DNA from: Burkholderiaceae bacterium
GTDB lineage: Bacteria > Pseudomonadota > Gammaproteobacteria > Burkholderiales > Burkholderiaceae_C
Direction: 5' to 3'
DNA: 35,267 nt
Assembly: GCA_031253955.1 (NCBI GenBank)
Contig: JAIRVJ010000120.1
Coordinates: 1-35,267, forward strand
Made by a program: the position numbers and the translations under genes. This document shows positions 26,161 through 28,386 of this stretch, one piece after another (the stretch's first letter is position 1; each line of letters starts with the position of its first letter). The notes under the pieces were generated by a model, which saw only the letters and a list, made by a program, of their open reading frames with translations, was not told the DNA's origin and ran no database searches.

Positions 26161-28386
26161 TCACCCCGGCGCATTCAGCATCTCCAGCATCCGCGCTTCG
26201 TCGATGACCGCCACGCCCAATTCCCGCGCCTTGGCGAGTTTGCTGCCCGCTTCCTCGCCCGCGACGACGTAGCTGGTTTTCTTGCTCACCGAATCGGTCA
26301 CTTTGGCACCGGCGGCTTCGAGTTTGGCCTTGGCCGCATCGCGGGTCAGGGTGGGAAGCATGCCGGTGAGCACGAAGGTTTTGCCGGCCAGCGGCAGCAG
26401 CGCAGCGGGCGCGGGCGCGCCTTCGGGCCAGTGCATGCCCACGGCGCGTAATTGCTCGACCACCTCGCGGTTGTGCGGCTGGGCAAAAAAGGTGTGAACG
26501 CTACGGGCCACCACCGGGCCGACATCGGGCACTTGCAGCAACTGTTCAAGGCCTGCATTCATCACGGCATCAAGCGCGCCGAAATGGCCGGCCAGATCCC
26601 TGGCCGTGCTCTCGCCCACGTGGCGAATGCCCAGCGCGTACAAAAAACGCGCGAGCGTGGTCTGCTTCGATTTTTCTAGCGCATCTTCCAGATTGCGTAC
26701 CGATTTTTCGGCCATTCGGTCCAAGCCGGCGTAGTCTTGGCGGCGCAGGCGGTACAGGTCGGGCAGGGTCTGCACTTTGCCTTGTTCGACGAGCTGCTCG
26801 GCCAGCTTTGCGCCCAAGCCCTCGATGTCCATCGCGCGCCGCGCTGCAAAGTGCAGGATGGCCTGCCTGCGCTGCGCCGCGCAGAACAGGCCGCCGGTGC
26901 AGCGGTAATCGGCCTCGCCTTTTTCGCGCACCGCCGCGCTGGCGCAGATCGGGCACTGGCGCGGCATTCGGAAGTTGGGCACATAAGGGAATCTCTGAGC
27001 AAGTCCCTCGCGGCTGGCGCATCCTGGATCCGGGCGGTCGGCTTCGTTGCAAATGCTCGCGATACCACTTGGTATCGCTGCGCTTTGCGCCTCGCAGCCC
27101 ATCCCGAATCCGGGCGCGCCCGCTCGCGCAGACTCGCTCAGAGATTCCCTCTCGCGCTTCCCCGTAGCGGGCGGCGCCACGCCGACGATTTCAGGGATCA
27201 CGTCACCCGCGCGCCGCACGATGACTCTGTCCCCCACGCGCACGCCCTTGCGCCGCAGCTCGAACAGGTTGTGCAGCGTCACGTTCGATACCGTGGTGCC
27301 GCCGACGAACACCGGATCAAGCCGCGCCACCGGCGTGAGCCTGCCGGTGCGGCCCACCTGCACGTCGATGCCAAGAACGGTGGTGATCTGCTCTTGCGGC
27401 GGATATTTGTGCGCCACCGCCCAGCGCGGTTCGCGCGAGACGAAACCCAGCCGGCGTTGCAGCGCCACCGAATCCACCTTATAGACCACGCCGTCGATGT
27501 CGAACGGCAGCCCGGCGCGCTCGCGGCCCATCTGCTCGTGGAACGCCGCCAGCGCCTGCGCCCCCTGCGCGCGCCGCGATTGGCACGCCACCGGAAAGCC
27601 CCAGGCGCGCAACTGCTCCAGACTATCGAACTGCGTCTGGCAAGCGGGCGCATCAAAAGAGCACTCGCCCAGCCCGTAGGCGAAAAAGCTCAGGCGGCGT
27701 GCCGCCGCAATTGCCGGATCAAGCTGGCGCACCGCGCCCGCGGCGGCGTTGCGCGGGTTGACGAACAGCTTTTCGCCCTTTTGCCCGGCGGCGATCTTTT
27801 CACGCTGGCGCGCATTGAGCGCCTCGAAGTCGTCCCGCCGCATATACACCTCGCCGCGCACTTCCACCACTTGCGGCGCCCCGCCCTGCAAGCGCAGCGG
27901 AATCTGGCCGATGGTGCGGATGTTGTGCGTCACGTCCTCGCCGGTTTCGCCGTCGCCGCGCGTGGCCGCCTGCACCAGCGCGCCGCGCTCGTAGCGCAGG
28001 CTGATGGCCAGGCCGTCGAACTTCAATTCGCAACAATAGTCCAGCGGCGGCGCATCGGGCAGCAGGCCCAGCTCGCGCCGCATCCGCGCATCGAAGGCGC
28101 GCGCGCCTTCGGCACTGATGTCGGTCTCGGTGCGGATCGAAAGCATCGGCAGCTTGTGGCGCACCTTGGCAAAACTTTCCAGTGCCGCGCCGCCCACACG
28201 CTGCGTGGGCGAATCGGGGGTGCGCAATTCGGGGTGCGCAGCTTCCAGCTCTTGCAGGCGCGCAAACAGGCGGTCGTACTCCGCGTCGGGAATTTCCGGC
28301 GCGTCCAGCACGTAGTAGAGGTGCGCATGGTGGCGCAACTGCTCGCGCAGCCGGGCCGCTTCATCCATTGGGGCAAGATCGGGCAT
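26161..28386 (-). CDS. ligA: NAD-dependent DNA ligase LigA with an in-frame repeat insertion
   Basis: Essential replication and repair ligase, 741 residues from [20 protein letters not shown]. Domain order is normal: Ia ([17 protein letters not shown]), the adenylation domain with ELKFDG (active-site lysine K122), the OB-fold ([15 protein letters not shown]), a C4 zinc finger ([20 protein letters not shown]), HhH repeats ([17 protein letters not shown] onward) and a C-terminal BRCT (about 660-741). Residues 413-467, from [16 protein letters not shown] to GLAQRFPY, are encoded by a 165-bp foldback element and match nothing expected in the family; without them the protein would be about 686 residues, close to usual. 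The insert lies in the OB-fold to zinc-finger linker, so the enzyme is probably functional. The frame is open upstream to 28551, but that part is not LigA-like. Confidence 0.95.
26986..27150. mobile_element. 165-bp palindromic MITE-like element inside ligA
   Basis: The ends are inverted repeats: AGGGAATCTCTGAGCAAGTC at 26986-27005 and its near-perfect complement at 27131-27150, with one mismatch (A/G) in the first 20 bp. The interior has a second, central hairpin, GCGATACCA-CT-TGGTATCGC, at about 27059-27078, flanked by further complementary pieces (GCAAA with TTTGC, and ATCCGGGCG copies), so the whole unit folds back on itself. The length is exactly 55 codons and the ligA frame stays open through it. 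No target duplication is evident. Confidence 0.85.

Follow-up and report, generated by a model that had tools for sequence, protein, structure and literature searches.

The NAD-dependent DNA ligase gene (ligA) of a Burkholderiaceae bacterium contains, at 26986-27150 of the 35,267-nucleotide stretch analysed here (the window), a near-perfect palindrome of 165 bp that occupies 55 open ligA codons. We consider it very likely that this insert is a copy of a non-autonomous palindromic MITE with ends of the IS5-family type, which was placed in trans into an interdomain linker of the ligase and is read through, with the ligase activity surviving. The ORF listed for ligA (26161-28551, minus strand, 796 aa) has no stop anywhere, the insert included, and the insert corresponds to ORF residues 468-522, or residues 413-467 when numbered from the Met at ORF residue 56. 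It lies in the linker that separates the OB fold, whose last ORF residue is 462, from the zinc finger, whose first is 532 (Table 1); in the alignment to the DNA ligase chain 2owo, which we take to be the E. coli enzyme, it falls between 2owo residues 392 and 404. The terminal arms are identical at 19 of 20 positions across a spacing of 125 nt, and a 15-nt arm sequence has two exact occurrences in the window and, at up to 3 mismatches, four matches as against 0.65 expected. The RNA of 26983-27153 is predicted to fold as a single long hairpin of -114 kcal/mol (z -11.3), with none of 200 shuffles equally stable, and RNAalifold places 58 pairs on 21 copies of the element, 25 of them with pair-keeping changes on both sides. 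A Pfam scan of the 56-residue insert peptide recovered no family at E <= 0.01. These results bear out the initial annotation, which had described an in-frame foldback element of 55 codons in an open ligA frame, had given it residues 413-467, had supposed a position in the linker between OB fold and zinc finger, and had found that it fits nothing expected in LigA. Immediately downstream of ligA the window holds a second foldback element (25897-26103) with 25-nt terminal inverted repeats (92%); as these enclose a CCCTCCCCC-type palindrome with 37-nt arms (25980-26061), one repeat appears to be nested inside another.

Table 1. Features of ligA and its insert in the window, and genes with internal in-frame copies of the element
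Feature	Location	Strand or frame	Basis
ligA, NAD-dependent DNA ligase	window 26161..28386	-	From probable ATG at ORF residue 56; Pfam DNA_ligase_aden, OB, ZBD, HHH_2, BRCT; aligns with DNA ligase chain 2owo
OB-fold domain of LigA, upstream of insert	window 27166..27384	-	PF03120, ORF residues 390-462
Zinc-finger domain of LigA, downstream of insert	window 26875..26958	-	PF03119, ORF residues 532-559
Palindromic in-frame insert, 55 codons	window 26986..27150	-	Repeat, fold and open frame; missing from LigA of 25 relatives
161-bp element proper (GG...CC ends), class A MITE	window 26988..27148	-	Limits set from copies with YTAR-like flanks
Terminal inverted repeat, arm 1	window 26986..27005	.	Inverted-repeat comparison
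Terminal inverted repeat, arm 2	window 27131..27150	.	Inverted-repeat comparison
Central perfect hairpin GCGATACCA-CT-TGGTATCGC	window 27059..27078	.	Sequence and fold
Host gene ligA	window	Internal, ligA frame	Profile matches on both sides
Host gene uvrC	G024, L090	Internal, ligA frame	Profile matches on both sides
Host gene alr	G029, L205	Internal, ligA frame	Profiles/structures match after insert only; part before aligned with one relative (L443)
Host gene UDG (uracil-DNA glycosylase) family 4	G024, L100	Internal, ligA frame	Profiles/structures match after insert only; part before aligned with seven relatives
Host gene EptA-like transferase	G024, L263	Internal, ligA frame; diverged element variant	Profile matches on both sides
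Host PIN-domain gene	G024, L268	Internal, ligA frame; diverged element variant	Pfam match before insert only
Host, unnamed ORF	G024, L091	Internal, ligA frame	No family on either side

A LigA search gave matches in all 29 genomes of the genus, some through the insert peptide alone (G009, G010) or through part of LigA, and none of the 25 other LigA sequences that cover the site has the insert residues. In the nearest of these in sequence, that of G022 (L034), the linker is empty and runs from GVMPPASGVRAG to YVPNFQMP; relative to it the net gain is ~162 bp (54 codons), in a poorly conserved stretch. The initial annotation had called for this alignment and had named close relatives with the same residues but devoid of the repeat structure as evidence against an insertion; no such relative was seen. 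Elsewhere in the alignment, in a gappy region that follows residue 224 of the window's ligA ORF, the LigA of G027 (L050) has 64 residues as against 18 to 22 in six others.

The element belongs to a dispersed family. In the genome that carries the window (G000) at least 26 rows match it, two of which are the ligA element on both strands, so that there are at least 24 other places (40 of 60 candidates scored). The longest of these copies are 72-74% identical to the ligA copy, while the remainder match the core or another part, with core-only identities up to 92%. Matches at E <= 1e-6 are present in 20 of the 29 genus genomes, this one included, and in several they are confined to the ~50-bp core. 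In G029 (MAG Xx448_bin5) there are at least 40 places (40 of 170 candidates scored), and, since nearly all full-length copies are 91-97% identical to the copy in alr, they probably represent a recent burst. Repeat searches of single genomes yielded 60 to 170 candidates, of which 40 were scored each time, so that these copy numbers are lower bounds. A named genome collection yielded 167 confirmed peptide matches, and the hosts, taken from 80 of these, include the MAGs Xx448_bin5, Pmx449_bin7 and SSC6, members of Comamonas, Acidovorax, Pelomonas, Ideonella and Rhizobacter, and an Alcaligenaceae strain; among the matches listed, the named copy-bearing genomes are Burkholderiales except for two MAGs labelled Methylobacillus and Azonexus. 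The copies on contigs of these two (L154, L155, L171), whose sample name prefixes are shared with copy-rich MAGs, probably reflect binning errors or recent transfer. The initial annotation had also asked for a census of copies within and between genes: the repeat is indeed dispersed and in-frame genic copies exist, but the majority of the copies read are intergenic. Copies at the 3' ends of genes seem in places to supply the stop codon of the upstream gene, as in L120 (G005, an ABC-ATPase-like C terminus) and L115 (G021, a DprA-like C terminus), both named by eye.

The canonical copy, seen in 22 of 36 full-length copies, is 161 bp long and runs from GG to CC, with an end consensus (class A) of GG[CA]RAC..CTGAAYAAG. 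An exact scan of viral contigs for class A ends found six loci, and in each of the three that were translated a transposase ORF adjoins a class A end; the two such ORFs scanned belong to the IS5 family (NF033581, E 1.8e-104 and 2.6e-105). In L331 both class A ends are present, ~1.15 kb apart. The IS5-family transposase lies beside class A ends in L331 and L332, and L333, which comes from the same source as L332, has the same ORF. As the ends of the canonical copies match those of IS5-family insertion sequences, the element is, judged by its sequence, a MITE. Its features are: 1) terminal inverted repeats (19/20). 2) A length of 161 bp, below about 300 bp, without a transposase ORF and with only the 55-codon frame. 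3) Multiple, dispersed copies. 4) Ends matching an autonomous insertion sequence, as seen in the viral-contig loci. The flanks give a mixed picture of target-site duplication: 4 of the 36 full-length copies have identical 4-mers on both sides (TTAG twice, TTAA and CCAA) and 6 of the 36 have YTAR, the usual IS5 target, on both sides, with no duplication visible in the flanks of the ligA copy. At 25 DDE_Tnp_1 loci in seven genomes, read for ~1.5 kb per side with some ended by contig ends, there was no class A end at up to 2 mismatches and one end at three mismatches in one locus; thus, no autonomous partner was found in those seven genomes. The same core also occurs within two other end types, namely GAACGTGTTTACGATC with TNA flanks and GAGCCTGTTCATAG (class C), the latter close to the ends of a DDE_Tnp_1 element of 840 bp in G029, with 2 mismatches in 16 positions. 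Across L004-L010 and L016-L026 one core stands under three kinds of ends, as if transposon families had exchanged cores.

Of the 36 full-length copies, 26 are free of stops in the ligA frame and 27 in the antisense frame in register with it, as against 1 to 13 in each of the other four frames; as the first two are equally open, chance alone would use both alike. Seven internal in-frame cases have the element in the orientation and frame of ligA (Table 1). The uvrC site is empty in all six aligned relatives; here the copy seems to have added 162 bp rather than 165, with no target duplication visible. At the UDG site seven relatives have a natural variable linker of similar length, so that this copy brings no net gain. 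For the upstream part of alr a motif filter recovered one of eight relatives. Six N-terminal or signal-peptide fusions are also in the ligA frame (pdxA, a cystine-binding protein, an ankyrin protein, a LysM protein, histidinol-phosphatase and a NodT-like protein), as is queG in G000 (L003). In such fusions the start codon may lie further downstream and the element outside the coding region, a caution raised before (PMC3733652; this and the other PMC numbers refer to excerpts of the papers). As a control, peptides of the antisense frame were searched for in the same way in five genomes, which gave 18 stop-free rows in frames of at least 200 aa. Seven of these are ligA-frame cases seen from the opposite strand; the remaining 11, read together with two shorter ones, contain no internal case. 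There are two antisense N-terminal fusions, L298, with a partial element, and L003, in which the element separates queG from a TsaE-like gene (named by eye) and has an open frame in both directions; in a further control locus, L111, the gene begins with its own Met directly after the element. The internal cases therefore divide seven to none between the ligA and antisense frames, while N-terminal cases occur in both, a comparison that is suggestive only, being small and partly biased by the choice of loci; the peptide searches of G024 and G029 scored 150 of 445-561 candidates.

A second sampling took 89 full-length copies with both flanks, of which the 19 with an equal best frame on both sides were read: ligA, uvrC, alr, the unnamed ORF and one signal peptide are in the ligA frame, one copy (L201) is antisense and 13 are intergenic or unclear. 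The set is biased, since loci from genome contigs were picked by an intact peptide and the others by DNA similarity to the ligA copy. The frames were called by a codon score trained on 10 segments of 9 window genes and on the LigA of 16 relatives (132 of 134 training windows correct, in-sample), which served for sorting loci only; in-gene claims were read by eye and then checked by profile or alignment. The antisense copy, in Acidovorax sp. NO-1 (L201), contains a stop and disrupts a nucleotidyltransferase-like gene (named by eye).

We propose that an IS5-family transposase, acting in trans, put the MITE into the ligA linker, which is the most likely course given the similarity of the ends and the flanks of other copies. 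The canonical 161 bp plus a 4-bp target duplication come to 165 bp; as this is exactly 55 codons, the host frame would be kept, and as the one sense frame of the element is usually stop-free, the gene would then be read straight through. Most likely the ribosome reads through the hairpin, so that mature LigA would carry a 55-residue loop, as suggested by the open frame, the intact domains and the finding of no second ligase among the matches listed. The linker would thereby gain ~55 residues with the ligase activity surviving, presumably as a neutral change, and copies in a stop-containing frame or inside folded domains would mostly be lost by selection.

Several observations count against this reading: target duplications are not visible at the ligA and uvrC copies, where the apparent gain is 162 bp, and just 4 of 36 copies have an exact 4-bp duplication; the 25 DDE_Tnp_1 loci of seven genomes yielded no transposase bounded by class A ends; and the UDG copy is without net gain. 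The N-terminal fusions in the antisense frame (L298, L003) likewise count against it, as does the loss of the raw synonymous excess in the ligA frame described below.

It is improbable, in our estimate, that the insert has instead been domesticated, with its peptide serving LigA (e.g. in protein contacts or regulation) and being kept for that. The peptides of different copies do have many residues in common, but this sharing follows from the recent common origin of the copies. In the ligA frame of 20 copies the raw synonymous share is 48 of 124 changes, against 26.5% expected; when changes common to several copies are counted once, 50 distinct changes remain, of which 19 are synonymous, compared with an expectation of 28% under the observed mutation spectrum (z 1.6), another frame giving z 1.5, so that no clear excess is left and selection on the insert peptide was rejected as evidence. 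DNA-repair genes make up 5 of the 15 internal hosts in a raw tally (ligA, uvrC twice, uvrA and UDG) that joins the seven cases above with eight of a second palindrome family, and this too might speak for a function. However, the uvrC linker argues for tolerance: where G024 UvrC has the ligA-type element, the UvrC of G000 has an unrelated in-frame palindrome (CCCTCTCCC...GGGAGAGGG; L337, 3030-3180), and the six other aligned UvrC relatives have neither. Unrelated palindromes have thus entered one and the same linker in two genomes of a single genus, which points to tolerated landing sites.

This second family, of CCCTCTCCC type, has at least 51 matching rows in G000 (40 of 130 candidates scored), among which both strands of one place may count. 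Its in-frame hosts there are uvrC, uvrA, glnD, hrpA, earP, aroC, rluC and an RbbA-type ABC protein. NCBIfam matches are split in two in uvrA, glnD, hrpA, earP, aroC and rluC; for uvrC this holds for one of the two top-scoring models, and the ABC protein was recognized by eye. Of 196 loosely defined hairpins 12 rows passed a filter, two each in uvrC, aroC, uvrA, glnD and rluC, one in the ABC protein and one in L372, which was left out of the in-frame cases, no palindrome peptide being visible in it. The hrpA gene (L371), whose NCBIfam matches are split, apparently has two separate palindromic in-frame inserts, the second seen by eye only. A CCCTCTCCC-GTTTA-CGGGAGAGG hairpin of the same kind as the uvrC insert of G000 is also present in the window at 15964-15986.

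Two further explanations, each of them less probable still, concern the fate of the gene product and the integrity of the gene. The very stable hairpin brings its own ends together, so that it might be excised from the RNA or hopped by the ribosome to give a mature LigA without the insert; but no Rfam family reaches the gathering score in window 25800-27400, the stop-free frame is not required for skipping, and an in-frame insertion suffices to explain what is seen. That ligA is becoming a pseudogene, or that the insert is an assembly artefact, a possibility already raised in the initial annotation, might be suspected of a draft assembly of 167 contigs, since repeats break contigs and several G024 copies lie at contig ends, but is very improbable: the rest of ligA is intact with its domains, no second DNA ligase appears among the matches listed (4 of 6 G000 rows of the LigA search), the copy lies inside its contig, the longest other copies of the genome are, at 72-74% identity, too far from it for a mis-join of identical repeats, and in-frame copies are found in other assemblies.

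The MITE in ligA resembles several known systems. RPE-1 and other palindromic elements of Rickettsia were reportedly described by Ogata in 2000 and 2002. Like the ligA element, these and their Wolbachia counterparts are palindromes with a long hairpin that lie both between genes and in frame within unrelated conserved genes. They measure about 105-150 bp (PMC2229807, PMC10969869). The Rickettsia elements were found in 19 host reading frames in the first description, and a guanylate kinase with an insert is active; target duplication is marked as unknown for them in a table of the same source (PMC2229807). The internal cases of the present family share with them in-frame insertion into conserved protein genes, in the same frame each time. 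In contrast, the ligA element occurs in Burkholderiales (save for the two MAGs above), has IS5-family-like ends and a unit that fits 55 codons. A 2024 review held a similar process in other prokaryotes to be conceivable (PMC10969869). GTAG and CGTC REPs, too, have been reported within the coding sequences of a number of bacteria, frequently in genes for DNA repair (Di Nocera 2013, PMC3733652); hosts in O. terrae include excinuclease ABC proteins, DNA ligase and RNA helicases, pseudouridine synthases are also among the hosts, and uvrA is a further example. These REPs are hairpins of 20-40 bp that bear a GTAG or CGTC tag on one side, whereas the ligA element is a 161-bp unit with GG..CC, IS5-like ends and no such tag. 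The betaproteobacterial parallel to Rickettsia drawn in the initial annotation holds for in-frame recurrence and for the Burkholderiales hosts but is not the first case outside Rickettsia: both in-frame palindromes outside that genus and palindromes in repair genes were already known (PMC3733652). By description the element may also be likened to the 107-bp form of Correia/NEMIS, to Yersinia YPAL/RU-2 (168 bp, 56-aa ORF) and to Coxiella QMITEs, all small and non-autonomous, with an open frame by which they become joined to genes of the host. Fusions to signal peptides have been described for YPAL (PMC2229807), and where QMITEs are reported to affect functional genes, it is mostly at the ends of these genes (PMC5896051). 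Its class A terminal repeats match the ends beside the IS5-family transposases of the viral contigs, but, unlike IS5-family insertion sequences, the MITE lacks a transposase gene and has a core common to three kinds of ends. In the open-licence literature, as far as its accessible excerpts extend, we found no paper on the 161-bp family, its IS5-type ends or the doubly hit uvrC linker.

Rickettsia and Wolbachia provide the best-known palindromes that code for protein, to which the 2013 survey added short REPs inside genes of several other bacteria (PMC3733652); the Burkholderiales family is a further kind of case, longer and with IS5-family ends. We tentatively raise the possibility, which we think rather doubtful, that the size and coding content of this element are fitted to life inside genes, and that core proteins of the lineage, repair enzymes above all, are decorated by at least two unrelated palindrome families, which in one case share a linker. 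If so, 161 + 4 bp matching 55 codons, one open orientation and frame and a bland, linker-like peptide would be the marks of that fit. The empty and filled sites in relatives make it testable whether the linkers are neutral and why DNA-repair hosts recur. Gene calling and structure prediction should also allow for mobile DNA as a source of odd inserts in core enzymes.
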